Source of the DNA: Aureococcus anophagefferens
Taxonomy: Eukaryota > Sar > Pelagophyceae > Pelagomonadales > Pelagomonadaceae
Reading direction: 5' to 3'
DNA length: 64,000 nucleotides
NCBI RefSeq assembly: GCF_000186865.1
Contig: NW_008705562.1
Location: forward strand, 2,080,431 to 2,144,430
Each line of letters begins with the position of its first letter. Positions within the stretch are counted from its first letter, which is position 1. A program made the position numbers and the translations under genes. The notes under the pieces were generated by a model. The model was not told the DNA's origin. It saw only the letters and a list, made by a program, of their open reading frames with translations, and searched no databases. Positions 3,254-51,260 of this stretch are shown here, piece after piece.

Positions 3254-4111
3254 ATGGCGTCCATTGACAAATGCATCGAGCCATCGGGGACCAACCAATG
3301 TCTTCTTAATGGTATTGGCATCGGAGATGGCGTGGTCATTCAAGGTCTCGTGAAGCGCCCCGAGCTCAACAGCCAGAGCGGCGTCGTCAAAGCCTTGTCG
3401 CAGGAGCTCGGCCGCGTCGTCGTCGAGCTCGACGAGGGCGACGGCGGCGCCCCGGCCGCGGTCAAGGTCAAGCCGTCGAACGTCGAGGTCGCCGAGGAAG
3501 CGACGCCCCTCGACCTCGCCTCGTTACTGTTGGACGCGCAGGCGCAGGCGCTCGCGCACCCCGACACGTTCGCGGCGCCCTCGGCGAGCGCGCTCGCGCT
3601 GCTGCCGCGGCCGGGCATTGATCTGGTCAAGGTCTGCGACGGGATGGAGCGATTCTGGGTCCTCGTGCGTTCCGTCGACGGCGATCGCGTCACGGGCCGC
3701 GTCGACAACGAATTGGTGGGCGGGCAGGCCTACGCGAACCACGGCTCGGTGATCTCCTTCGAGAAGCGGCACATCTACCGGCTGATGGTCTACCTCGAGC
3801 CTCTCGAAGAGGCGTGGAAGACGGCCCGCTACCTCGGCCAACACGAGGCCGCCAAGTCCTATTTCAAGGAGCAGATCGACGGCGACGTCCCCGAGGGGCT
3901 GGGCGTCCCCGTCGAGAGCATCGCCGAGGTCGAACGCTGGTTCGCGGCGAACCCGGACGCGCTCGCGGGCACGGGCCTGGCGGTCGACGACGTCGCCTGC
4001 CACCACCTGTATCCACGGTCGAAGGTGCCCAACGGGGACTCGATGTACTACGACAACCTCATGAACCTGTGCGTTTCGACGCGCGTCGCGGCCCTCGCCC
4101 TGGACGACTAG
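3254..4111 (+). CDS. Hypothetical protein with KOW-like N-terminal module
   Basis: 285 residues, no signal peptide or membrane segment. Residues about 24-80 form a small beta module of the pattern 'G--V-I-GL----LN-Q-G-V------GR--V-LD------VKPSN-', seen widely in algal and oomycete proteins as an SH3/KOW-like unit. Residues about 129-165 (GMERFWVLVRSVDGDRVTG, then NHGSVISFEKRHIY) resemble the DUF2314-type fold in which a W-V core is followed by 'G-V-N'. The C-terminus (HHLYPRSKVPNG) is unassigned. Role unknown. It lies 102 bp downstream of the SirB1-like gene on the same strand. Confidence 0.7.
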   Translation: MASIDKCIEPSGTNQCLLNGIGIGDGVVIQGLVKRPELNSQSGVVKALSQELGRVVVELDEGDGGAPAAVKVKPSNVEVAEEATPLDLASLLLDAQAQALAHPDTFAAPSASALALLPRPGIDLVKVCDGMERFWVLVRSVDGDRVTGRVDNELVGGQAYANHGSVISFEKRHIYRLMVYLEPLEEAWKTARYLGQHEAAKSYFKEQIDGDVPEGLGVPVESIAEVERWFAANPDALAGTGLAVDDVACHHLYPRSKVPNGDSMYYDNLMNLCVSTRVAALALDD

Positions 4112-4113
4112 GC

Positions 4114-4221
4114 GTCCGAAACGTAACTCGCGCGACCTAGGTCCATTCCCCGACGTCCGCCACGGGCTGTCCGAAATGTAACTCGCGACCTAGGTCAATT
4201 CCTCGACGTCCTCCACGGGCT
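4114..4221. repeat. Tandem duplication across convergent 3' ends
   Basis: Copy A 4114-4168 and copy B 4169-4221 share most bases; each contains the palindrome GACCTAGGTC (4134-4143 and 4188-4197). Copy B holds the stop codon of the ankyrin gene (minus), so copy A is a duplicated, untranslated copy of its last codons. It separates the stop codons of the two converging genes. Confidence 0.9.
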
Positions 4222-7200
4222 CGAGCTCGCCGATGACCTCCGTCCGCGTCGACGACGCCAGGCCCCCGCCGTCGTCGAGGTCGTCGTTGCCGACGGTCCA
4301 GTCGAGGGGCCAGTTGCCGTTGCGGTGGAGGCGGATGCACTCCGCGAAGTCGCCGTCCATGACCGCGTGCGACATGGCCGCGAGCTGCGTCGCCGCCGCC
4401 GCGTGGCCGTGGACGAGCGCGAGCTGGCGCGGCGTGAGGCCGCGGCGGTCGCGCGCCGTCGCGTCCGCGCCGGCGGCGAGGAGCGCGGCGACGGCCGCGC
4501 GCGCGCCGACGCGCGCGGCCGCGTGGAGCGGCGTCAGGCCGTCGCGGTCCGGCGCGTCGAGCACCGCCGCCCGCGCGGCCCGGTCCCGGGGCGCCAGGGC
4601 CGCGAGCGCGTGGCACGCGTTGCCGTGGCCGCGGTGCGCGGCGTGCCAGAGGGGCCCCCGGCCCGCCGCGTCCGCGCGCGCGGGGTCCGCGCCCGCGCCC
4701 AGGAGGCAGCGGCACGCGTCGGCGTCGCCGGAGGCCGCCAGCACCTGGAGGCACGTCGTCCCGTTGGCGCCGTGGCGCGCGTCGACGTCCCGCGGCCGGC
4801 CCGCGACGAGCGCCGCGAGCGTCGCGAGGTCCGGCGCGCCGCACGCGCGGAGGAGGGGCGTCGCGGGCCCGCCGTCGATGGGCGCGAGCGCGTCCGCGCC
4901 GGCGTCGAGGAGCGCGGCGACGGCGCCCGCGTCGCGCTGGGCGACGGCGAGCGCGAGCGCGCGGTCGAGTAAGGCCGCGTTCGTCCGCCGCGCGGGCGCC
5001 GCGCCGTCGCCGCCCGCCGCCAGGGCCCTGGCCGCGTCGAGGGCGACGGCCACGGTGCGCAGCTCGGCCTTGGCCGACGCGTGGTCGAAGCAGGCGCGCT
5101 CCAGCGCCGACCGGCCCAACGAGTCCGCGGCCGTCGCGTCCGCGCCGGCCGCGAGGAGCGCGTGCGCGACGGCGACGTGGCCCCGGGCCAGCGCGGCCAT
5201 GAGCGCCGTGGAGCCGTCGGGCCGCGGCGCGTCGACGTCGAAGACGGCGACGCGCTGGTCCAGGAAGATGCGCACCGCGTCCAAATCGCCCGTCTCGACG
5301 GCGACGAAGAACGGCGTCGTCGCCCTTTGCGGCGGCGGCGGCGGCGGCGCGTCCGGCGATTGCACCGGCGCCGCGTCGCCCCGGGGGAGCACGTCCGCGC
5401 CGTCGAAGAGGGCGCCGTCGCAGGGGCCCAACGGCTCGACGCCCCGGAGGAGCAGGAGCTCCGCGAGCGCGTGGCGGCGCCGCGCGACGGCGACCTGTGT
5501 GGAATTCAACCACTGGTTTGGGTGGTCCTGACCAAACTTCAGAACTCTCTAGCTCGGTCAAATCGAAGTCGATTCGGCTGATTTTGGGACGAATCGATTG
5601 CTCTCGTCGAGCTCTCGAAGCACGGCAGAAGAACTCGTGTCGAAACGGTCGCATACGCTCACATTGAAGTCGGGTTGAAGATTCGAATTCCACACAGACG
5701 GCGACGCGGAGCAGCGGCGCGCTGTCCTCGGGCCGCGGCCGCGCGGTCGCGTCGGACCGCAGCACGACCTCCGCCGCCCGCGGCTGGCATTTCGCGGCGG
5801 CGGCGGCCAGCGCGCCGTGGAGGTGCGCCGGCGCGGGCCCCGCGGCCGGCGACGTCGCCGCGAGCGCGAGCGCGGCCTCCAAGACGTCGTCGCGGCCCGC
5901 GGCCGCGGCGCGCGCGAGCACGGTCTCGCCGCCGGGCCCCGCGGCGTCGATGGCGAAGCAGCCCCGCGCCACGAGTCTCAAAGCGCGGTCGAAGTCGCCG
6001 TCGCCGATGGCCGCGCGCATCGCGTCGAGGCGCCGCGCCGCGCGGCCCCGGCCGCGCGCGGAATCGCGCGGCGTCCGCGCGCCCAAATCCCTCGCGCCGC
6101 TGTCGGCGCCCGCGCCGAGCAGCAGCGACGCCACGGCCCCGTCGTCGGCGCGCGCCGCGCGGTGCAGCGGCGCCGCGCCCGCCGCGTCCGCCGCCGCTAA
6201 AAGCCGGCCCCGCGCGCCGTCGTCGCCCGCGTGGAGCGCGACGAGGACCGCGGCCTGTGTGGGAACCAAATCTTCAACCCGACTTCAATTTGCGCGTAAT
6301 CGAACGATTTGGACCAGGCTCTTTCACTGTGCTTCGAGAACTCGACGAGAGCAATCGATCCGTCCAAAAATCAGCCGAATCGACTTCGATTTGATTGAGA
6401 TCGAGAATTCTCAAGTTTGGTCAGGACCCCCCAAACCAGTGGTTGGTTTCCACACAGACCGCGGCCGCGTCGTAGGCCCGGTGGCTCGCGGCGACGTGCA
6501 ACGGCGTGCGGTGGTGCGGGTCCCTCGCCAGCGCCCCGAGCGACTGGTCGCCCTGGGCGAAGCGCAGCAGCAGCGCGAGCGCCTCGACGCGGTCCGCGGC
6601 CGCCGCGGCGTGGAGCGGCGACGCGAGCGGGGCCGGCGCGCCGCCCGCGGGCGCCGGCGCGTGGACCGCGCGCCGCACGGCGTCCGCCGCCGCGCCGTCG
6701 TCGCCCTCGGGCCCGTCGAGCAACACGCGGAGCGCCCGCGCGCCGCGCGGCGCGGCCGCGGCGGCCGCGCGCGCGAGCGCGGACAGGAGCGGCGGCGCCT
6801 CGAGGTGGCCGCCGCCGCGGCCCCGCCGGTCGCCGCCCGTCGCGGCCCAGAGCGCCGCGCCGTAGTGGTCCCGCGCGTCGCCCGGCGCCAATCCCTTGGG
6901 CCGCTCCGCCGCGTCCAACAGGCCCGACGACGGCTTCGCCGCGTCGCCGCCGCGCGCGAGAACGAGCGCGAGCAGGTCGTCGTCGCCGACGTCGACGGCC
7001 AGGGCGAGGAGCGCGGCGGCGCCGGCGCCGTCGGGCGACGGCACGCAGCCCCGGCGCAGGAGCGCCGCGGACCCGATGGGCCCGAGCACGCGGCTCCCGG
7101 TTCGCGCGGCCTCGTCGACGACCAGGTCGACGCCGGCGCTGTCGCCGTCGCGGGCCGCCGCCTCAAGCGCCGCGGCGCCGTCGCCCGCGTCGAGGCGGAA

Positions 7201-10200
7201 GTTGCCGCGCGCCGCGAGCTCGGCGACGCGCGCGTAGTCGCCGCCGTCGACGGCCGCGCGCATGGCGCGCAGGCGCACCTCGACGGCGCGGCGCCGCTCG
7301 CCCGGCGGCCGCGCGTCGCCGTCGCCGCCGTCGCCGCCCGCGCCCTCGCCGCAGACGTCGACGGGCGCGCGGCCCGCGGCGTCGGGCGCCGCCGCGACCG
7401 CGCCGCAGCGGAGCAGCGCGGCGACGGCGGCGACGCGCGCGGCCCGCGCGGCCTCGTGGAGCGCCGTGGCGCCGCCGTCCTCCGGCGAAACGCGGTCCAC
7501 GGCGCAGGGCGCGCGCGCGAGCGCCGCGACGACCGACGCGGAGCCTACCGCCGCGGCGATCGCGAGCGGCGCGCGGCCCCGGCCGTCGCCCGCGACGTCC
7601 GGGTCCGCGCCGACGCGCAGGAGCGCGAGCACGGCGTCGCGGCGGCCCGCCGCCGCGGCCGCGCCCAGGGCCGTGAGCTCGTGCGCGGCCGCGCCGGTCC
7701 GCACATTCGCGGCGACGCGGCACCGCCGGTTCAGGTCCACGGGGCTCCGCCCGTGGTGCAATAAAATGGCCTTGAGCACCTCGGCGGCGTCGCAGCGGCC
7801 GCCGGGCCGCGCCGATTGGACGTCGTCGACGACGTCGAGCTCGCCGTCGCTCCCCGGGGTTTTCTCGAGGTAGTCCGCGGCGTCCGCGGGCGGCCACGCG
7901 CCCGCCGCGAGGAGCAGGGGCGTGCGGCCGCCGCAGTCCGGCCGCTCCGGGTCCGCGCCGCGGGCGAGCAGGAGCGCCGCGGCCTCGCCGCGCGTCCGGC
8001 CGCCGCCGACGAATTTCGCCGCGCCCGCGGCGCCGCCGCCGCCGCAGACGACGTGGAGCGGCGTCTCCGCGCGCGCGTCGTCGGCGGCCCGCGCGTCGGC
8101 GCCGGCGTCGAGGAGCGCCCGGGCGAGGCAGCGCTCGCCCGGGTCGTCGCCGCTTTCGTCGCCCGCCGCGCGCGGCGACCCGGGCGGCCGCGGGCAGCCG
8201 TCGAGCAGCGCGCCCGACCGCGCCGCGGCGAGGAGCGGCGTCTCGCCCGCGGCGTCGGCCCTGTTCGGGTCCGCGCCCGCGTCCAGCAGCCGCTTCGCCG
8301 CGGGCCCGTGGCCCAGGCGGCAGGCGACGAGCAGCGCGGTCACCGCGCCGTCGCGGAGGCCCGCCGGCTCGTCGACGACGTAGTTGCCCCGGTCGACGTA
8401 GCGCAGCGTCGCCGGCTCGTCGCCGCAGAGCACGGACGCGCGGAAGCGGCCCAGCGTGTGGGCGATCTGGGCGTCGCCGGCCTCGAGGGCGATGGACAGC
8501 GGCCGCTTCGGGCGCTCCGCGCCCGACGGCGTGCTCGCGAGCGGGCCGTCGCGCGGCCGCGACGCGGACGCGCCGAAGCGCAGGAGCGCCCCGACGGCGC
8601 CCTTGGCGTGGGCCGCCGTCGCCACGCGCAGGGCCGTGTGGCCCGAGTCGTCCGTGGCGTCGACGTCGAGCATCTCCGCGAGCGCGTCGCCGCCGGCGCC
8701 CGCGTCCGAGCCCGCGGACGACCGCCGGCCGAGGCCCAGCAGCAGCTCGACGTTCTCGGGCCGGTCCGCCTCGGCGGCGTAGAAGAGGGCCGTCCGTCCC
8801 CGGGCGTCGCGCTTCTGGAGCGACGCGCGCGACCCCGACCGGCGCTTGAGGCCCGCGCGCTTGAGGCCCGCGTCCGCGGCGAGCTCGGGCGCGCCGAGGA
8901 GCGTCCGCAGGACGCTCGACGCCTCGGGGAGCGCCGCCGCGAGCATGAGGGCCGTCGCGAGGCGCGGGCCGTGGGGCGCGTCGACGTCGGGCCGCTTCCG
9001 GCCCCCGTCGGGCGCGCCGCCGGCCTCGGGCGCCGCCAGAAGCGCGGACACGAGCCGCGCGTCGCGCGCGTCCGCGGCGGCGACGGAGAGCGGGCTCCGG
9101 CCCTTGGCGTCCATGGCCAGCGGGTCCGCGCCGTGGGCCAGGAGCAGCGCGCAGACGTCGCGCGCGGACGCGGCCGTCACGGGCACCGCGCGGCTCCGCG
9201 CCGCGGCCTCGGCCGCGCGGCAGAGCGCGGAGCACCCGAGCGCGTCGCGCGCGTCCACGGCGCAGCGGCCCGTGGCCAGCAGCATCTTCGCGAGGTGCGT
9301 GTCGCCCCGCGCGGCGCAGGCCATCAGCGGCGTCCGCTTCTCCGGTCCGTGGTCCGCGTGGTTCGCGTCCGCGCCGAGCGTGAGCCAGAGCTCGGCGCCC
9401 TGGCCGTCGCCGTTGGCGCAGCAGCGCAGCAGCGCCGTGAAGCGGTCGTCGGGCGCCGCGGCGCAGACGTCGGCGGGGAAGTTGGCGAGCGCCGTGCCCG
9501 CGTTCCGCGGCAGCTCGCCGTCGCGGATGACGCTCCGGACGCTCCGCGCGACGTCCGCGGCCGACGACGCGTCGAAGGCCGCGGACCCGAGGCTCGCGCG
9601 GAGGTCCCGCGTCGCCGCGACGAGCTGGCGCGCGCGCGCGGACGCGTCGGCCTCGCCGGCCGCGGCCGCGCCGACGTCCGCGACCGCGTCGCGCTGCAGC
9701 AAGGCGGCGACGCACGCGACGTGGCCCGCGCGCACCGCGTAGACCAGGGGCGGCACGCCGTCGCCGTCCGCCGCGTCGACGACGGCGCCCGCGGCGGCGA
9801 GGGGCGCGACGACGGCCGCGCGGCCCCGCTCCGCGGCGAGGTGGAGCGGCGTCTTTTTGGTGAGCGGGTCCGACGCCGTCGCCGTCGCGCGGCACGTGCA
9901 CCGCGTGCCGTCCTCGGCCTTGGCGAAGGCGCCGCCGGCGAGGGCCATGACGACGGCGCCGTGGCCCGCGACGGCCGCGGCCTCCAGAGCCGTCTCCGGG
10001 TGGAGGCCGAAGCGCCGGTCCGGGTGCGCGAGCAGCGCGCTCCGCGCGTCGCCGTCGGCCTCGCCCGCCGCGAGCTTCGCCAGGGACCGCAGGAGCGCCC
10101 GGGCGATCTCCGCGGACCCGCGGCGCGCGCAGCAGAGCAGGGGCGTCTCCCGCGCGCCGAAGCCGTCGGCCAAGGTCGGGTCCGCGCCGGACGCCAGCAA

Positions 10201-10902
10201 AGCCCGCGCGGCGTCGAGCGCGTCCGCGCGCACGGCCCCGAGCAGGGGCGTCTCGAAGGCCTTCTCCGAGTCGCCGAGCTCGGGCCCGTTCGCCGCGGCG
10301 CCGAGGCCCACGAGCGCGCCGATGACGTCCGCGCGGCCGCTCCGCGCGGCCGCGAGCAGCGCCGTCACGCCCCTGCCCGCGGCGTCGCGCGCGACGTAGT
10401 CCGCGGGCAGGCGCCCGCGCCGCAGGGCCAGCAGCGCCACCTCGACCTTCGCCGGCGCCGACCGCAGCGCGTCCTCCAAGTCGCCGCCGTCGCGCCGCTT
10501 CTCGCGCGCCTCGCGGAGCGGTTCCAGGAGCGTGTCCAGGTCCGTGTTCGCGACGCGGGTGAGCAGGTCGAACCAGGCCGTGACGCCCTCCTGCGTGAGG
10601 CAGTCGAGCACGCGCCGCTTGCCCGACGCCGCGTTGAAGTCGCTGAGCGCGAGGCAGTGCGGCCGGCCGGGCTGCGGCGCGCGCAGCACCGTCGTGCCCG
10701 CGGTGATCGTCATCTCCTTGCAGTACTTGTCGCGGTTCGTCTCCGTCATGTGCGTGTTGTCGAGGCGCAGCGTCAGGTTCTCCAGGTCCGCGGCGACGCG
10801 CACCCACTTGCCGCCGGCGACGAGCGACCCTTCCCGCGTGTAGACGTAGGCGTAGCCGCTGTGCTTCAGCGAGATCTCCTCGCTGTCCTCGCGGGACCGC
10901 AT
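4190..10902 (-). CDS. Giant PH-domain ankyrin-repeat protein interrupted by two introners
   Basis: Best model is complement(4190-5494, 5700-6254, 6460-10902): all three exons are multiples of three (1305, 555 and 4443 nt), giving 2,100 residues. The start (MRSREDSEEIS) is chosen because a PH-like domain follows directly (residues about 10-125; core GYAYVYTREGSLV, then W-V---DL-NLTLRL and a C-terminal helix EGVTAWFDLLTRV). The rest is dozens of ankyrin repeats (G-TPL--AA--G----V--LL--GAD-). The ankyrin sequence resumes seamlessly across both AT-richer inserts: LLR(VA)VAVARRR at the first and AYDAA(AA)AVLVALHAG at the second, where residues in parentheses come from the duplicated target. Ankyrin proteins are scaffolds; the PH domain suggests membrane or phosphoinositide binding. 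The partner is unknown. Confidence 0.85.
5495..5697. mobile_element. Introner element 1 (non-autonomous DNA-transposon-like intron)
   Basis: 203 bp, markedly AT-richer than its flanks. It has perfect 13-bp terminal inverted repeats (CTGTGTGGAATTC at 5495-5507, GAATTCCACACAG at 5685-5697) and a perfect 8-bp target duplication ACGGCGAC (5487-5494 and 5698-5705). On the coding (minus) strand the last two bases of the upstream target copy plus the terminal repeat give a donor GTCTGTGTGG, and the other terminal repeat ends in the acceptor CCACACAG, so a 205-nt intron (5495-5699) is removed in frame. There is no coding capacity. It matches the published description of introners in Aureococcus and Micromonas. 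Confidence 0.93.
6255..6457. mobile_element. Introner element 2, inverted relative to element 1
   Basis: 203 bp, the same length as element 1 and similar to it over the whole length when reverse-complemented. Terminal repeats are CTGTGTGGGAACC (6255-6267) and GGTTTCCACACAG (6445-6457), one mismatch. The target duplication ACCGCGGC is perfect (6247-6254 and 6458-6465). Coding-strand donor GTCTGTGTGG and acceptor CCCACACAG define a 205-nt intron (6255-6459) removed in phase 0. Because both ends carry the same CTGTGTGG terminus, the element can serve as an intron in either orientation. The two copies do so here within one gene. Confidence 0.93.
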
Positions 10903-28971: not shown

Positions 28972-31900
28972 ATGGCGAGAAGCGTCGTCTTGGCGCTCCT
29001 GGCCGCCCGGGCGTCGGCGCTCTGCGTCCTGCGGGACGCGACCGTCTGCTGGGGGAACGAGCACCAGTACGTCGAGAACACGGACTTGGTCGACGGCATC
29101 TACGTCGAATTGGAGATGGCGTTCGCCGACGTCGACGGCGACGGCGACCTCGACCTCGTCGTGGGCGAATACGACGGCACCCTCAACTACTACGAGAACG
29201 TCGGGAACGCGACAGCGCCGAGCTACGAGGCCGTCACCGGCAGCGCGAACCCCTTCGACGGCATCGACGTCGGTTCCTGGAGCAAGCCCGCGTTCGCCGA
29301 CGTCGACGGCGACGGCGACCTCGACCTCGTCGTGGGCACATACGAGGGCGCCCTCTTCTACTACGAGAACATCGGGAACGCGACGTCGCCGACCTACGAG
29401 GCCGTCACCGGCGCCGCGAGCCCCTTCGACGGCATCGAAGTCGGTTTCGACAGCAAGCCCGTGCTCGTCGACGTCGACGGCGACGGCGACCTCGACCTCG
29501 TCGTGGGCGAAGACGACGGCAACCTCTACTACTACGAGAACGTCGGGTCCGCGACGTCGCCGAGCTACGAGGCCGTCACCGGCAGCGCGAACCCCTTCAA
29601 CGGTATCAACGTCGGTTCCTACAGCGCGCCCGCGTTCGCCGACCTCGACGGCGACGGCGACCTCGACCTCGTCGTGGGCGAAGAGTGGGGCTCCCTCTAC
29701 TACTTCGAGAACATCGGGTCCGCGACCTCGCCGAGCTACGAGGCCGTCACCGGCGCCGCGAACCCTTTCGACGGCATCGACGTCAGTCTCCGCGACGGCA
29801 TCTATCGGGATCACAGCGCGCCCGCGCTCTTCGACGTCGACGGCGACGGCGACCTCGACCTCGTCGTATCCCTCGACGGCTTTCTCAACTACTACGAGAT
29901 CGTCGGGTCCGCGGCGTCGCCGAGCTACGAGGCCGTCACCGGTAGCGCGAGCCCCTTCGACGGCATCGACGTCGGTTACCTCAGCACGCCCGCGCTCGCC
30001 GACCTCGACGGCGACGGCGACCTCGACCTCGTCGTGGGCGAATGGGCAGGCGTCCTCTTCTACTACGAGAACGTCGGGTCCGCGGCGTCGCCGAGCTACG
30101 CGGCCGTCACCGGCAGCGCGAACCCCTTCGACGGCATCGACGACGGTGGCTTCAGTTTTCCCGCGTTCGGCGACCTCGACGGCGACGGCGACCTCGACCT
30201 CGTCGTGGGCGATTGGACCCTCACTATGGGCGTAGCGGAGGAAGGCGCCCTCAACTACTATGAGAACGTCGGGTCCGCGACGTCGCCGAGCTACGAGGCC
30301 GTGACCGGCGCCGCGAACCCTGTCGACGGCATCAAAGTCGGTGGCTACGACTTTTCATATGCGTTTGCGCCCGCGTTCGCCGACCTCGACGGCGACGGCG
30401 ACCTCGACCTCGTCGTGGGCGAATACTGGGGCGGCCTCTACTACTACGACAACGTCGGGTCCGCGACGTCGCCGAGCTACGCGGCCGTCACCGGCAGCGC
30501 GAACCCCTTCGATGCCATCGCCGTCGGTTCCCACAGCACGCCCGCGTTCAGTGACCTCGACGGCGACAGCGACCTCGACCTCGTCGTGGGCGAACAGGTA
30601 GGCCTCCTCAACTACTACGAGAACGTCGGGAACGCGACGTCGCCGAGCTACAGAGCCGTCACCGGTAGCGCGAACCCCTTCGACGCCATCTCCGTCCCTC
30701 TGAGCAGCGCGCCCGCGCTCGCCGACCTCGACGGCGACGGCGACCTCGACCTCGTCTTGGGCCAATTCGACGGCCACCTCTACTTCTTCGCGAACGGTTA
30801 CTGCACGCAAGGCGACACTGCCTGCCGTGGCAGCGGCCTCTGCGATCTGACCTACGTCATCTTCTCCGAAGCGTCCTGCCAGTGCCTCGGCGGCTTCGAC
30901 CACGAGGTGCCCGACGTGGTCATGCAGTGCGGCGAGTGCCAGGCGGGCTTCTACGGGAGCACGTGCGAGCCGTGCCCGCAAGGGGGTGACGAAGACCGCA
31001 ACGCGCCGCGCCTCACGGACACCTGCGGCGTCGCGGGGAGCGGCCGGTCGCGCGGCTCCTGCGACGACGGTAGGGGCGGCACCGGGGCGTGCACGTGCTT
31101 CGGCGACGTCTTCTCGGGGAGCGGCTGCACGGAGGGGACGTGTCCAGCGGGGACCGTCGAGACCGCGACCTTCGATGGCTACTACAACATCGCAAACTGC
31201 ACGTCGTGCGACGCGGGCACCTTCTCGGCCGAGGGCGACCCGCAGTGTACGAAGTGCGCCGCGGGCAAGTCCTCGGCCGCGGGCGCGAGCGAGTGCGCCA
31301 GCTGCTCCGCGGGGTCGTATTCTGCTCCGGGCGCGAGCGAGTGCTCAACTTGCACAGTCAGGACGTACCAGGGCGAGACCGGCCAGTCGAGCTGCGCGCT
31401 CGCGGACGCCGGGTCCTTCGTCGACGCGATCGGCGCCTCTGAGCAGACCGCGTGCGATGCGGGCAAGTACAGCGGCTCCGGCGCGGACGAGTGCGTCGAC
31501 TGCGAGGCCGGGACGTACCAGGGCGAGACCGGCCAGTCGAGCTGCGCGCTCGCGGACGCCGGGTCCTTCGTCCAAGCGGACGGCGCGTCGGAGCAGACCG
31601 CGTGCGATGCGGGCAAGTACAGCGGCTCCGGCGCGGACGAGTGCGTCGACTGCGAGGCCGGGACGTACCAGGACGCGACGGGCCAGTCGAGCTGCGCGCT
31701 CGCGGACGCCGGGTCCTTCGTCGACGCGATCGGCGCCTCTGAGCAGATCGCGTGCGATGCGGGCAAGTACAGCGGCTCCGGCGCGAGCGAGTGCGACGAC
31801 TGCGCGGCCGGGACGTACCAGGGCGAGACGGGCCAGTCGAGCTGCAAGCTCGCGGACGGCGGGTCCTTCGTCCAAGCGGACGGCGCGTCGGAGCAGACCG

Positions 31901-34900
31901 CGTGCGATGCGGGCAAGTACAGCGGCTCCGGCGCGAGCGAGTGCGACGACTGCGCGGCCGGGACGTACCAGGACGCGACGGGCCAGTCGAGCTGCAAGCT
32001 CGCGGACGGCGGGTCCTTCGTCGACGCGATGGGCGCCTCGGAGCAGCGCGAATGCCCCGCGGGCTCATTCTCCGGCTCCGCTTCGGGCAAGTGCGACGAC
32101 TGCGTGGCCGGCACGTTCCAGGAGCTGACGGGCCAGTCGAGCTGCGCGCTCGCGGGTCAGGGCTTCTACGTCGGGAGCACTGGAGCTTCGGAGCAGACTG
32201 CTTGCCCCGCGGGAAGCTTCTCCGGCTCCGGCGCGAGCGAGTGCGACGACTGCGCGGCCGGGACGTACCAGGACGCGACGGGCCAGTCGAGCTGCAAGCT
32301 CGCGGACGCCGGCTCCTTCGTCGACGCGATCAGCGCCTCGGAGCAGGCGGCGTGCGATGCGGGCAAGTACAGCGGCTCCGCCGCGAGCGAGTGCATCGAC
32401 TGCGCGGCCGGCACATTCCAGGAGTCGACGGGTCAGTCGAGCTGCCTCCTCGCAAATGCCGGGTCCTTCGTCGATGCGATCAGCGCCTCGGAGCAGGCCG
32501 CGTGCCCCGCGGGAAGCTTCTCCGGCTCCGGCGCGAGCGAGTGCGTCGACTGTGAGGCCGGGACGTACCAGGACGCGACCGGCCAGTCGGGCTGCAAGCT
32601 CGCGGACGCCGGGTCCTTCGTGAACGAAATCGGCGCCTCGGAGCAGGCGGCGTGCGATGCGGGCAAGTACAGCGGCTCCGCCGCGAGCGAGTGCGAGGCT
32701 TGCGCGACCGGCACGTTCCAGGAGTCGACGGGCCGGTCAAGCTGCAAGCTCGCGGGTCAAGGCTTCTACGTCGGAAGCACTGGAGCTTCGGAGCAGACCG
32801 TGTGCCCCGCGGGCAACTTCTCCGGCTCCGGCGCGAGCGCATGCGACGAGTGCGAGATCGGGACCTTCAGCGCCGAGGGCGACTCATCCTGCACGTCGTG
32901 CCCCGCGGGCTTCTCGAGCAGCGCCGCCGGAGCGAGCGAGTGCAGCGCGTGCCCGGTCGGGACCTTCAAGGGCGCCGGCTCGGGGCCGTGCGTCGAGTGC
33001 GGCGTCGGTACCTACGGACCCGAGACCGGGCAGTCGAGCTGCCTCCTCGCAAATGCCGGTTCCTTCGTCGACGACACCGGCGCATCAGAGCAGACCGCGT
33101 GCCCCGCGGGCTCGTTCTCCGGCTCCGGCGCGAGCGAGTGCGCGATGTGCGAGCGCCGGACGTACCAGTCCCTGGTGGGTCAGGCGAGCTGCGCCCTCGC
33201 GGACGGCGGGTCCTTCGTCGACTTGGCTGGCGCCTCCGAGCAGACCGCGTGCCCCGCGGGCTCGTTCTCCGGCTCCGGCGCGAGCGAGTGCGCGATGTGC
33301 GAGCGCGGGACGTACCAGTCCCTGGTGGGTCAGGCGAGCTGCGCCCTCGCGGACGGCGGGTCCTTCGTCGACTTGGCTGGCGCCTCCGAGCAGACCGCGT
33401 GCCCCGCGGGCTCGTTCTCCGGCTCCGGCGCGAGCGAGTGCGCGATGTGCGAGCGCGGGACGTACCAGTCCCTGGTGGGTCAGGCGAGCTGCGCCCTCGC
33501 GGACGGCGGGTCCTTCGTCGACTTGGCTGGCGCCTCCGAGCAGACCGCGTGCCCCGCGGGCTCGTTCTCCGGCTCCGGCGCGAGCGAGTGCGCGATGTGC
33601 GAGCGCGGGACGTACCAGTCCCTGGTAGATCGAGGACGGAACACTGCAGCGGAATATTGAGGAGGCGGTCTCTTCGGGGCGGCGCAGGCTTTGGGCCTCG
33701 CGGCGTACGCTTTCGGGGTCGGCGCTCGGCTCTGCGACCGTCGACGTCGAATTGAGCTCCGAAGGCATACTCGCAGCGACCGTGGAGACTGACGCTCCAC
33801 CTGGAGGATTTTCCACCGGCGAGACCTCGTCTTGTCCCCCGGGCAAGTTCTCGTCGAGCGGGGCGTCCGAGTGCGTCGAGTGCGAGCGCGGGTCATATAC
33901 CGATGCGAAAGGTCAGAATGTCTGCAAGTTAGCCAGCGCGGGAAGCTTTGTTCCCTGGGCGGCCGCTTCCGAGCAGCAAGTCTGCCCACCTGGGAAGTAC
34001 ACGGCCGGACAAGGCGCGCACGCGTGCTCGAACTGCCTGCCCGGGGCGTTCCAGCCCGACTCCGGTGCGGTTACGTGCAAGCTCGCGAAAGCCGGCTACT
34101 TTTGCGCGGACGAAGGCGCCTCGAACCAAACGGAGTGTCCCGCTGGAAAGCATTCGAGCTCGGGCGCCGCGAACTGCACGGATTGTGATCTCGGTCAGTA
34201 CGCGCTTCCGGGGGCATCGACGTGCACGCTGGCGAGCGCTGGAAGCTTTGTTGCAGCTCAGGGCATGTCTAAGCAGGCTGAATGTCCGGCTGGAAAGTAC
34301 TCAGGCTCGGCGGCCGAGAGCTGCACAGAGTGTCTGCCCGGATCTTTCGCGGCCAAGGAAGGTTTGACGGTTTGCACGCTGGCGAGCGCTGGAAGCTTTG
34401 TTGCAGCTCAGGGCATGTCCAAAGAGGACGAATGTCCGGCTGGAAAGTACTCTGGCTCGGCGGCCGAGAGCTGCACAGAGTGTCTGCCTGGATCTTTCGC
34501 GGCCGAGAAAGGTTTGACGGTTTGCACGCTGGCGAGCGCGGGAAGCTTTGTCGCAGCTCAGGGCATGTCCAAAGAGGACGAATGTCCGGCTGGAAAGTAC
34601 TCAGGCTCGGCGGCCGAGAGCTGCAAGGATTGCGTCGCAGGTCGATATTCTGGCCCGGGCGCGGACACGTGCGAGCTCGCGGAAGCCGGCAACTTTTGCG
34701 CAGACACGGGCGCCTCTGCAGAAGTGCCGTGCAAAGCCGGGAGCTACTCAGGCGCCGCGGCCTCAAAGTGCACCCCGTGCGCCGAAGGATCTTATGCTTC
34801 CAAGCAAGGATCGGCGACCTGCACGGCCGCGTCGGCGGGCAGCTTTGTCGCGAAGCCGGGCGCGACCTCAGAAGTCCGCTGCGAATCAGGAGAACGCAGC

Positions 34901-37900
34901 GGCGTCGGCCAGAGCAAGTGCGAGCAGTGTCAGCCCGGCACCTACGCGTCCGATGCCGGGTCTACGACGTGCGATCTCTGCGAAGCGGGCACGTTCGCCG
35001 AGGAGAGCGGCAAGAGCGCGTGCGACGAGTGCCCGGCCGGCAAATACGCGAGCGCGGTTGGATCGACGATGTGCTCGATCGCGAACGCGGGCTCCTATAC
35101 CTCAGAAGACGGCGCCACCTCGCAAGAGCTTTGCCCGGCGGGCACGATTAGCCGCCCCGGCGAGAGCAAGTGTACGAACTGTCCCGCGGGCTCCTACGCC
35201 GCCGAGGACGGCTCGACGTCGTGCGTCCTCGCGAACGCCGGCTCTTACGTCGCCAGAGACGGTGCGTCCCAACAGGAGCCCTGCAAAGCGGGCACTCTGA
35301 GCGGCGCCGGGCAAACGTCCTGCGACTTGAGCCCGGCGGGATCGTACGTCCCGCGGTCGGGCGCCTTCGCCGCGGTCATCGCGGACGCGGGCTACGTCGT
35401 CGAGGAGGAGGGCGGTTCGGAACAGACGAAGTGTCCACCCGGTTCCTACTCGGGCGCGAAGGCCTCTACGTGCACGCTCTGCGAGCCCGGCCGCTACGCG
35501 AACCTCGAAGCGGCCGCCACTTGCGAAGCCGCTCCTCCGGGCAAGTTCGCGTGGGTCCACGGTGCCGTCGCGCCGTCGTCGTGTCCCGCGGGGCGATACT
35601 CCGGATCCGGCGCGGTCTCCTGCACGCTGTGTCCCGATGGGCAAACCAGCGATCGGGAGTCGGCGACGTGCAGACCCGTCGACGCCGGCTCCACGAACGC
35701 GGAACTCTCCACGGTCACCGTCGAGATCTCTTCCGCGCTCGTGCTCGAGGGCTTGGACGCGGACCGCTTTCCCGACGACGAAGCGGCTCTTCAGGCCTTT
35801 GCATCCGCAGTCCAGGAAAGCATTCACTCGGATGAGGTCTACGACGTGCCAGCGCGGGACGTGCATCTCGCCGCTCGCCGTCGTCTCGCGACGGCGGCGA
35901 ACCACGATCAAATCTCCTTCGTCGCCTACGCGAACTACACCCTCGTTCCCGGAGAGGAACTCGACCTCGACCGGTTCAAGGATGGCTTCCAGGACACGCT
36001 GCTCTCTTCGATATCGACCGGAGACGCGCAAAGTGCGCTCGACGACCGCGCGGCCGGCACGTCGCTCGCGTCGGCGGCCATCGACGAGGCGTCGAGCGCG
36101 GCGACCATCACTGGAAGCACGGAGGTCGCGGTTACCGAAGCTCGCTCGACGACGGACGCGCTCGTCGTCGAGTGCCCCGCGGGGACCATTTCCGCCGCCG
36201 GCGAGAGCGACTGCACGCCGTGTTCGCGCGGGACGTACTCGGACGCTCTCGGTCAGACAAGCTGCAAGCTCGCGTCGCCCGGCACGTTCGTGCCGGTCGA
36301 GGGCGCCTCGGCCGCGACGCCGTGTCCCGTCGGGACGTTTTCGGGTGCCGCGGCGTCGTCCTGCACGCCGTGTCCTCTGGGCTACTACAACAATCTCACG
36401 AAGCAGTCCGCGTGTCAGCTGTGTCTCGCTCCGACCTACACGCTCGAAGAGGGCAAGACCTACTGCGACGCGTGCCGCGAGGACTACTACTGGGACTCGA
36501 GAACGTACGCCAAACACGCCGAGGAGAAGCTCCTTGACGAAAACAAACAGCCGCTGCCGTGCGAGGAGTGCTGCGTCGAGTGCGACGACGCGTGCGAAGG
36601 CGGCGTCGAGACGTGCGCGAACTGTCCCCAGGGCGCGCGCACGACCTTGGAGACGATGGACCTGAAGAAGAATTTCTGGCGCGCGTCGATCGACGCGACG
36701 TCGATCTACGAATGCACCCTCGAAGAGTCGTGCAAAGGCGGAGCCAACAGCTCGTGCGCGCGCGGCCACAAGGGCCCGCTGTGCGGCGCGTGCGAGGCCC
36801 ACTACTTCTACGACACGGCCGCGAACCGCTGCGTGGACTGCGGCAACAAGATCGAGGCCCGCGGGGACAACATCATCGGGACCGTGCTGGCCGTCCTATT
36901 TGTCGTCGCGGCCATCGGCGTCGTGATGCGAAAGTTTGGCCTCTTCACCGTTTTGGGTCACGGGGTCGACGCGATTCGCGAAGTCGTCCAGGGCGAGGCA
37001 GTCGAAGATATCGCGAAGGCAAAGCTCGAGGAGCATTACGAAGATGACGAAGATGGAGAGGCCGCCGGCAGCGACACGCAGAGCGCCGACGACGAGGAGT
37101 CGTCGGGACGATCCACGGAGCAGAACGTCATGACGAAAGTGAAGATCGTCATCGCGACGTACCAGATCGCGTGCAGCATCCCGTGGTCGCTCCCGCAAGT
37201 ACGTTTTCCCGCCATCTTCGAAGAGGCCCTGAAGCTGGGATCCGTCGTGAATCTAAGCTTCATCAGCTTCGCCAAGGCGGAGTGCTTCGGAGATTTCGAC
37301 TACTTCGACAAGCTTCTCTTCGTGACCCTGCTCCCCGTCGTCTTCGTCCTCTTGATCGCGGTCGGATTCGGGCTCCGCTACGCGTGCGTGGATCGGTCGC
37401 GGCGGGACGAGATCCTCTCCGGGGCTTCGTATTGGATCCTCTTCACGCTCTACGTCCTCGTGCCTTCGACGTCCGCGTACTGCCTGCGGTATTTCGCGTG
37501 CGCCAAGTACGACGGCGGCTACGGCGAGGGTGTCAACGTCCTGCGCATCGACCCGACGATCAGCTGCGACAGCCCGTCGCACGACGCGTGGCTGCCCTAC
37601 GTGCTGTTCTCGATCGTCGCCTACCCCGTCGGCGTGCCCCTCGGCTTCGCGTGCCTGCTCTGGCGGTTACGGCGGCGGCTGGACCCCGACGTGGACCATC
37701 AAACGGTTCGAACGCCTTCAGGACGGACCATCGGCGAAGCGGGCGCCGACGCGGCGAACCAGGAGGACGAGCACTTCCTCCACGAGGCGCTCGAGCGGCA
37801 CGCGGAATCGATGGTCCAGTTCCAGAAGCTCGAGGTGCGGGCGAACGACCCGACGCTGGAGAGCGTGCGCTTCCTCTACGAGGAGTTCAAACCGAGCTGC

Positions 37901-38521
37901 TTCATGTTCATGGTCTACGAGGTCTCCCGCCGCATCTTCCTCACGGGGTGCCTGTCCATGTTCGTGCCCGATTCCATCTCCCAGANNNNNNNNNNNNNNN
38001 NNNNNNNNNNNNNNNNNNNNNNNNNNNNNNNNNNNNNNNNNNNNNNNNNNNNNNNNNNNNNNNNNNNNNNNNNNNNNNNNNNNNNNNNNNNNNNNNNNNN
38101 NNNNNNNNNNNNNNNNNNNNNNNNNNNNNNNNNNNNNNNNNNNNNNNNNNNNNNNNNNNNNNNNNNNNNNNNNNNNNNNNNNNNNNNNNNNNNNNNNNNN
38201 NNNNNNNNNNNNNNNNNNNNNNNNNTCTTCGCGACGGACAATCTCGAGCAGCACGGCGGCGTCTTCTCGGGCAAGGTGTTCGCGAGCCTCCTCGTCGTGC
38301 TCCTCGCGTCCACGCTTCTGATCGCGCTCTGGCTGATCATCCTCGCGAACTTTAGCGGCGACGACTTGCGCTCCTGCTTCGTGGGATCGCGGCGCGGCCT
38401 CCTCGACGTCCGCCGCTCGCTGTCGGGGCTGGTCGCGCCGCGGAGCCCGAAGGACGGCGGCGGCGAAGACGTCCCGGTCGAGGCCGGCGCCGTCCAGGCG
38501 GAGCCCGTCGCCGGGATCTGA
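28972..38521 (+). CDS. Giant FG-GAP / Cys-rich ephrin-receptor-like multi-pass membrane protein
   Basis: Best model join(28972-33617, 33688-38521), about 3,159 residues including 80 unknown in the 240-N gap. A 70-nt intron (GTCCCT...GCGCAG, phase 2) restores frame. Signal peptide first, then ten FG-GAP/VCBS units (DGDGDLDLVVG, about 60 residues each, Ca-binding beta-propeller type), a Cys/EGF-like segment, then about 15 near-identical 50-residue Cys repeats (C-AG-YSGSGA-EC-DC-AGTYQ) and many diverged ones of the GCC2/GCC3 (ephrin-receptor-like) class. After a Cys-rich knot (GHKGPLCGACEAHYFYD) come several membrane helices (TVLAVLFVVAAIGVV; LLFVTLLPVVFVLLIAVGFG and others) with FLYEEFKPSCFMF, as in TRP/polycystin-like stramenopile surface proteins. 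Likely an adhesion or sensing receptor at the cell surface. Confidence 0.83.
29126..30800 (+). repeat. Ten FG-GAP/VCBS coding repeats
   Basis: The DNA word encoding DGDGDLDLVV recurs at intervals of about 165-200 bp with little divergence, including at silent sites, so the array is young or homogenised. Units run from about 29126 to 30760. One unit has DGDSDLDL. Confidence 0.9.
31340..33617 (+). repeat. 150-bp tandem Cys-repeat array, exact copies at the 3' end
   Basis: Fifty-residue units repeat every 150 bp. The last units (33121, 33271, 33421, 33571 begin the same word GGCTCCGGCGCGAGCGAGTG) are essentially identical over 150 bp, implying very recent expansion or gene conversion. Copy number in the assembly may be wrong. 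The splice donor of the following intron lies inside the final partial copy. Confidence 0.93.
33618..33687 (+). other. 70-nt intron in the FG-GAP/Cys-repeat gene
   Basis: Donor GTCCCTGG, acceptor GGCGCAG, phase 2, joining TYQ to LWASRRTLSGSALG. Without it the frame ends at 33660. The alternative is a repeat collapse at about 33626, where identity to the 150-bp unit stops. Confidence 0.6.
37986..38225. other. Assembly gap (240 N) within the membrane domain
   Basis: The flanks stay in the same frame if the gap length is right (80 codons). It removes part of the C-terminal multi-pass region between SMFVPDSISQ and FATDNLEQHGG. Confidence 0.95.
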
Positions 38522-50436: not shown

Positions 50437-50462
50437 GACGGCCTGGGCAGCACAAGGGTGAT

Positions 50463-51260
50463 TCAACGTCGCTTCGACGTGAGCGTTCCGCGCGCGCGCG
50501 TTCCGACAAAAGCATCCACGCTGCGATACCGTCCCGAGAGATGATCGCTCGTCCAAAAATCAGCCGAAACGAGTGGAAAACGGCCGAGAAAGGAGCCTTT
50601 GAAGTTGGGAATGTCGCTCTCTTTTGCTGCCCCGATGACCGCCTGGTCCGCGGGGCACCGCGACTGGCGGCGCGCGACCTCGGACGACAGGTCCGGCCGG
50701 CATTTGCGCACGCCCGCCAGCACGCGCTCGGCGCCGTCGCGCGTCACGGCGAAGGCGTGGAGGCACAGCGCGGACGTCGTGCGGAAGACGTCGCCGCCGA
50801 CGCGGTCCTCCAGCCCGCAGTTCGCGCGGCAGGAGCCGAGGTAGAGGACGCGCCAGACCGGCGGCAGGTGGTGGAGCACGCTCCGCAGCCGCGCGCGCAG
50901 CCCGACGCCGCTCGGCGCGAAGTCGTCCTCGAAGATGAGCGCCGTCTCCGCGGTCGTCGCGAGGAACGCGCGCAGCGCCTTCCGGTGGCTCAGCGACGTC
51001 GCGATCTCGCCGCTGCTCAGATCGTCGAGGGCGTCGGCCGTGAACTGGTCCCGGATCGCGTCGAAGTCGCCGTCGCGCTCCGGCGGCTTCACGGCGTCGA
51101 CGACCTCGACGTCGAGCCCGAGCGCCGCCGCCGTCGCCCGCGCGGGGCCCGAGCTCTCGTTGACGCCGACGACGTAGATCTTGTCGAAGAAGTCGAAGGG
51201 GTCGCCGTAGGGCTCCGCGGCCGCCGCGGCGCAGCACAGCGCGGCGAGGAGTCGCCGCAT
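50463..51260 (-). CDS. GT25-like glycosyltransferase
   Basis: 265 residues with signal peptide (RRLLAALCCAAAAAEP). The motifs FFDKIYVVGVN at the N-terminus, ATSLSHRKALRAFLA and ALIFEDDF match the GT25 (LOS/collagen galactosyltransferase) layout 'CSLSH-rAl--f' and 'EDD'. The last 50 residues are encoded by AT-richer DNA that shares 19 identical bases with an introner (50550-50568), so the C-terminus may be read from a decayed element. The stop lies 26 bp before the next gene on the same strand. The DxD-like EDD should bind the nucleotide sugar through a metal. Confidence 0.72.
   Translation of the reverse strand: MRRLLAALCCAAAAAEPYGDPFDFFDKIYVVGVNESSGPARATAAALGLDVEVVDAVKPPERDGDFDAIRDQFTADALDDLSSGEIATSLSHRKALRAFLATTAETALIFEDDFAPSGVGLRARLRSVLHHLPPVWRVLYLGSCRANCGLEDRVGGDVFRTTSALCLHAFAVTRDGAERVLAGVRKCRPDLSSEVARRQSRCPADQAVIGAAKESDIPNFKGSFLGRFPLVSADFWTSDHLSGRYRSVDAFVGTRARGTLTSKRR

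Follow-up and report, generated by a model that had tools for sequence, protein, structure and literature searches.

The introners of Aureococcus anophagefferens, as described by Huff, Zilberman and Roy in 2016, reportedly carry one splice site, co-opt the other and are spliced perfectly. Excerpts from further sources describe them as characteristically about 210 bp long (PMC9481584), as having direct repeats and terminal inverted repeats (TIRs) of constant length together with canonical splicing motifs (PMC7789003), and as inserting in both orientations (PMC10228655). In the available parts of the respective texts, the GC share of donors runs from 0 to 50% among the introner families of Gozashti 2022 (PMC9860276), and Iwata and Gotoh 2011 (PMC3033335) give 39.6% GC-AG introns for A. 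anophagefferens, the origin of which is called an enigma there.

Two inserts in an ankyrin-repeat gene of the window, i.e., the whole stretch of 64,000 nucleotides that was analysed, are very probably introners of the A. anophagefferens kind: nonautonomous, MITE-like cut-and-paste DNA transposons that would be removed exactly together with one target-site duplication (TSD). We take the family to be already known: its mechanism has been published, and the host here is very probably the one it was published for. Among other things, our tests add a corrected donor rule.

Two probable introner copies in an ankyrin-repeat gene

The inserts were described in the earlier note as two 203-bp elements with near-perfect 13-bp TIRs and perfect 8-bp TSDs, each interrupting an ankyrin frame in phase 0, and the coordinates bear this out (Table 1). 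The TIRs of both copies start CTGTGTGG, the 13-bp TIR is perfect in copy 1 and matches at 12/13 positions in copy 2, and the 8-bp duplications are exact (ACGGCGAC for copy 1 and ACCGCGGC for copy 2). Cutting 211 nt at each insert leaves an open minus-strand ankyrin frame with both introns in phase 0, and a retained insert shifts that frame, 211 not being divisible by three. Pfam places ankyrin repeats in the near-identical protein P0001. The earlier note missed that the copies are homologues inverted relative to each other, 82% complementary over 221 nt. The exon between them spans 5706-6254 (549 nt), and the two introns, as inverted copies, could pair in the unspliced RNA.

Table 1. Positions of the introner copies, their duplications, the proposed introns and related features in the window
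Feature	Position	Strand	Details
Introner copy 1	5495..5697	-	203 bp; TIR CTGTGTGGAATTC at both ends; 52-copy profile E 3.3e-71
TSD of copy 1, downstream (exon) copy on coding strand	5487..5494	.	
TSD of copy 1, upstream copy on coding strand	5698..5705	.	GTCGCCGT; proposed donor GT 5705-5704, position taken from the family
Proposed intron 2, ankyrin gene	5495..5705	-	211 nt, GT-AG, phase 0; frame computed, splicing predicted
Introner copy 2, inverted relative to copy 1	6255..6457	-	203 bp; profile E 1.1e-67
TSD of copy 2, downstream (exon) copy on coding strand	6247..6254	.	
TSD of copy 2, upstream copy on coding strand	6458..6465	.	GCCGCGGT; proposed donor GC 6465-6464, position taken from the family
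Proposed intron 1, ankyrin gene	6255..6465	-	211 nt, GC-AG, phase 0; frame computed, splicing predicted
Ankyrin-repeat gene, host of both introners	4190..10902	-	2096 aa once the two introns are removed; start codon chosen by analyst
Older diverged relative	50443..50634	-	192 bp; TSD 7/8; ends CTGGGCAG / CGGGGCAG; shared core; profile match 50462-50610, E 2.2e-9

The older relative has a TSD that opens with GC on the minus strand and an end reading CAG. This copy pointed to a subfamily with CTGGGCAGCA ends, which was discarded with 0 exact matches in the genome. Elsewhere in the window, two large open frames (28972-33660 and 33752-38521) contain many ephrin-receptor-like repeats; the former also has FG-GAP repeats, and the latter overlaps a 240-base run of N (37986-38225).

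A genome-wide family

Other copies with the same termini, for which the earlier note had proposed a genome search, turned out to be numerous. In the assembly searched (49.05 Mb, 86 contigs), CTGTGTGG was paired with CCACACAG 23 times at 150-180 bases apart and 408 times at 181-210, giving 431 copies with exact 8-bp ends, and a reversed-pattern control in the same assembly gave 0 pairs, so the window inserts are not a product of chance. The figure of 431 is a lower bound, because a looser DNA search yielded 1678 candidates, 40 of which were scored, with 40/40 matching at 93-100%. TIR patterns with other inner bases retrieved 85 and 10 sites, and the one 745-bp pair consists of two introners around an exon.

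We studied 52 of the 431 exact copies (30 loci, 20 fetched copies and the 2 in the window), which were the first among the matches listed and not a random sample. Their pairwise identity runs from 75 to 99% (median 87%), and the element measures 203 bp in 23/52 (range 167-205). For a second set, with one intact end each, 48 of the 85 sites were taken (L052-L099), about six of them picked for their odd look, along with one pair as L051. The TSD matches at 8/8 positions in 39/52 of the sampled copies and in 33/47 of the second set. Before the AG count given below, L059, which reads N, and L099, with a one-base offset, were dropped from the second set, leaving 46 copies and thus 98 oriented copies with the first 52; L094, which has a doubtful end, was counted, and the AG count was redone without it. 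The coding strand came from a codon model trained on the sampled flanks and the window itself.

In L099, one end of the duplication appears displaced by a single base, which might reflect a TSD of 9 bp or the change of one base. Like the window copies, L051 (192-936) is an introner pair, inverted around a short exon, with intact outer ends and decayed inner ends. An autonomous partner with the same ends was not found, nor was any KDZ or hAT match in a search whose controls were also silent. Strong gene preference of the copies is not claimed, with 77% of window pieces already scoring >10 as coding.

A probable donor at the start of the duplicated target

The donor had been proposed in the earlier note to come from the TSD, at its last two bases (5699 and 6459), and the two targets to share the form AC(G/C)GCG(A/G)C. 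Co-option of the duplicated target is supported, but the proposed position is probably wrong, the family constraint lying at the first two bases. When only codon use decides the coding strand, the TSDs of the 98 copies start with GT in 53, GC in 44, GA in 1 and GG in 0, i.e., with GY in 97/98. The first count of these copies had taken the strand from GY where GY stood on one strand only, L006 excepted, and the codon-only repeat returned the same numbers. GY opens the TSD on at least one strand in 52/52 copies, against a background of 36.5%. Where GY stands on one strand only, that strand is the one chosen by the codon model in 40/41 copies, the exception being L006, with GA on the coding strand; in the second set the agreement is 35/35. 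L006 (1493-1508 and 1668-1675) has the sole GA donor among the 98, and its element is just 167 bp long.

When offsets were scanned, GY occupied the TSD start (offset 0) in 51/52 copies and stayed near background at other offsets except -1, +1 and +7 (19/52). The first two depart from background because GY at offset 0 forbids GY there, and the last because the element supplies the second base. Across the 98 oriented copies, clear constraint is confined to the first two coding-strand bases of the TSD, and positions 3-8 show no clear preference. The shared target consensus is not borne out genome-wide, with nothing beyond GY in these copies. The exon base before the donor is C in 52/98 oriented copies, compared to a background of.37, and the AG typical of usual exon ends is absent there.

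A GY at the TSD start could in principle mark the target preference of a transposase and not splicing, which would fit its almost exceptionless occurrence (97/98) and the observation that in-frame donors 3 or 6 nt off seemingly do not substitute for it. However, given symmetric ends and insertion in both orientations (30:22 relative to the gene in the 52 copies, p 0.33), such a preference should read GY....RC, whereas GY is found on both strands in 11/52 copies, which is equal to chance and so argues against a symmetric target taste. The transposase would also need knowledge of the coding strand, and the one-sided retention of AG described below would be left unexplained. We thus consider target preference quite unlikely.

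Orthologous proteins

Three orthologous proteins are gapless at both junctions: P0001 (source ENA, 2096 aa, 98% identical), P0002 (61% identical) and P0005 from Pelagophyceae sp. CCMP2097 (60% identical). P0001 may stem from an introner-free allele, a cDNA or an intron-aware caller. The A. anophagefferens protein P0003 (JL720_10489), an automated gene model, has two additional residues at the copy-2 junction, as the donor in the earlier note predicts. It also includes 14 residues near copy 1 that correspond to the element in another frame, so the strain of P0003 seems to carry copy 1. P0009 (JL721_11737) is 99% identical over 30% of the searched part, without the first-junction region. Overall identity is 81% for P0003 and 79% for P0009, and their other stretches resemble faulty gene models. 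These protein matches point to A. anophagefferens as the host; a search by rubisco gave no hit. Gene predictors, in our own estimation, tend to avoid GC donors such as the one proposed for copy 2.

The two added residues in P0003 would suit the same introners using a GT at the element-adjoining end of the TSD (GTCTGTGTGG), with two codons added per insertion. Both window copies have GT at that end, and the element there adds a G at intron position 5. Across the family, however, GT ends the TSD in just 9/98 copies (6/52 and 3/46), both window copies being among the nine, GY at that offset (15/52) is close to its 20.6% background, and the three gapless orthologues have no added residues. A donor at the TSD end is thus very unlikely.

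Because the family constraint sits at the TSD start and the three orthologues lack extra residues, the donor positions proposed earlier are probably wrong, and the donors probably start at 5705 and 6465, six nt away. With GT or GC at the TSD start, one TSD plus the element would be removed exactly, making copy 1 a GT-AG and copy 2 a GC-AG intron. For the two window introns themselves, which also have GT at the TSD end, we infer the exact donor from the family.

In a rough model in which donors 3 or 6 nt away are equally fit, about 70% of copies would lack GY at offset 0, compared to the 1/98 seen. Any of three causes could account for this excess: strong selection that keeps the proteins exact, a donor bound to its position, or insertion that distinguishes the strands. 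Tentatively, and with more doubt than confidence, we suggest that the donor may be GY only, fixed exactly 8 nt outside the element, such that a GT or GC at that place in an exon suffices for an intron; this alone would yield about 40% GC-AG introns. If so, donor choice by the spliceosome follows place, or else insertion is linked to the strand being transcribed.

Acceptor, element ends and reading frame

Each element end, when read outward, has the form TTGA[T/A]TTCCACACAG. The acceptor CACACAG, attributed to the element in the earlier note, is supported by the 46 copies with one intact end, in which the non-selected end keeps AG in 15/15 cases where it is the acceptor and in 13/31 where it is on the donor side (p 8e-5; without L094, the donor side gives 13/30 and p 1.7e-4). 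AG is thus retained on the acceptor side only, as splicing predicts, and the combination of donor-side end decay with acceptor-side AG retention provides DNA-only evidence for spliced copies. In 32/52 copies a branch-like YTRAY motif is found 10-11 nt inward of the acceptor, and both window copies lack it; we infer a branch-point role for TTGA[T/A].

Both window copies form the terminal stem when folded (z -3.46 and -0.65). An RNA hairpin of the ends was discarded as a requirement, since it is apparently not maintained: 18/31 donor-side ends have lost their match to the acceptor AG.

The reading frame carries on past the excision in 43/52 copies, with intron phases of 0 in 15, 1 in 8 and 2 in 20 of these clear-frame copies. 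In the other 9/52 the two flanks are in different frames, and nearby introns are suspected. The inserts could otherwise be plain MITEs, unspliced and gene-breaking, as would suit a 211-bp insertion that is not a multiple of three. Frame continuation past the insert in the 43 copies, retention of AG on the acceptor side only and the coding-strand GY at the TSD start all speak against plain MITEs, which we regard as extremely unlikely.

Proposed mechanism

We favor spliced introners, for which the following steps are proposed. Insertion would duplicate 8 bp of exon. Either element end, read outward, would be usable as a 3' splice site; the ends being inverted repeats, an insertion in either orientation would have one that faces correctly. 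The first two coding-strand bases of the duplicated target, GT or GC, would serve as the donor, and excision of one TSD plus the element (211 nt) would restore the original message exactly. Mobilisation would depend on an unseen transposase.

TIRs, TSDs, copy number, coding-strand GY, both orientations, frame continuity and the one-sided AG constraint are established in the DNA, and splicing of both inserts is predicted. The earlier proposal that these are TIR- and TSD-bearing DNA-transposon copies acting as introns gains support from copy number, GY, frame continuity and one-sided AG. Points against our favored reading include the frame mismatch in 9/52 copies, the two added and 14 element-derived residues of P0003, the absence of YTRAY from the window copies and the GA of L006.

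GC-AG introns

GC donors make up 44/98 of the copies, in exons where GC outnumbers GT 3.7 to 1 (background GT.115, GC.431, GA.189 and GG.265). The copies as such form a natural titration of donor dinucleotides and, from their counts against this background, GT is used about five times as readily as GC. With nearly half of their donors GC, the introners may account for the 39.6% GC-AG introns reported in A. anophagefferens. The enigma of its GC-AG introns would have a simple and testable answer if introners make up most introns of this alga.

Comparison with known introners

Compared to the introners described for A. anophagefferens, the window introns match in length (211 nt for both, about 210 bp reported) and share the constant-length direct repeats and TIRs and the occurrence in both orientations, as far as the excerpted descriptions go. 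The canonical wording for splice motifs in the available part of PMC7789003 is in tension with the 44/98 GC donors found here. A co-opted donor and a carried acceptor appear in the sequences as well, with GY in 97/98 copies, acceptor AG in 15/15 and gapless junctions in three orthologues. No difference from the A. anophagefferens introners was found when these were compared by description.

The introners of Micromonas pusilla, presumably of independent origin, are likewise intron-making elements in a high-GC alga. GC-AG introns are also frequent there (22.2% in the portion of PMC3033335 available), and some families, according to the excerpted text of PMC9860276, lack TSD and TIR, unlike the family here.

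Family 4 of Aureococcus sp. (TARA_AOS_82_MAG_00129), from the same genus, has the 8-bp TSD in common with our copies. In contrast, its own elements bring both splice sites with them and lengthen the transcript by 12 bp, and its example interval (3289-3365) is far shorter than the copies here, going by the passages on this family in PMC9860276. The introners of Symbiodinium microadriaticum, per the Fig. 2B legend of the same source, differ in having a 4-bp TSD instead of 8 bp, and they likewise have TIRs, carry the 3' splice site and take the 5' splice site from the TSD.
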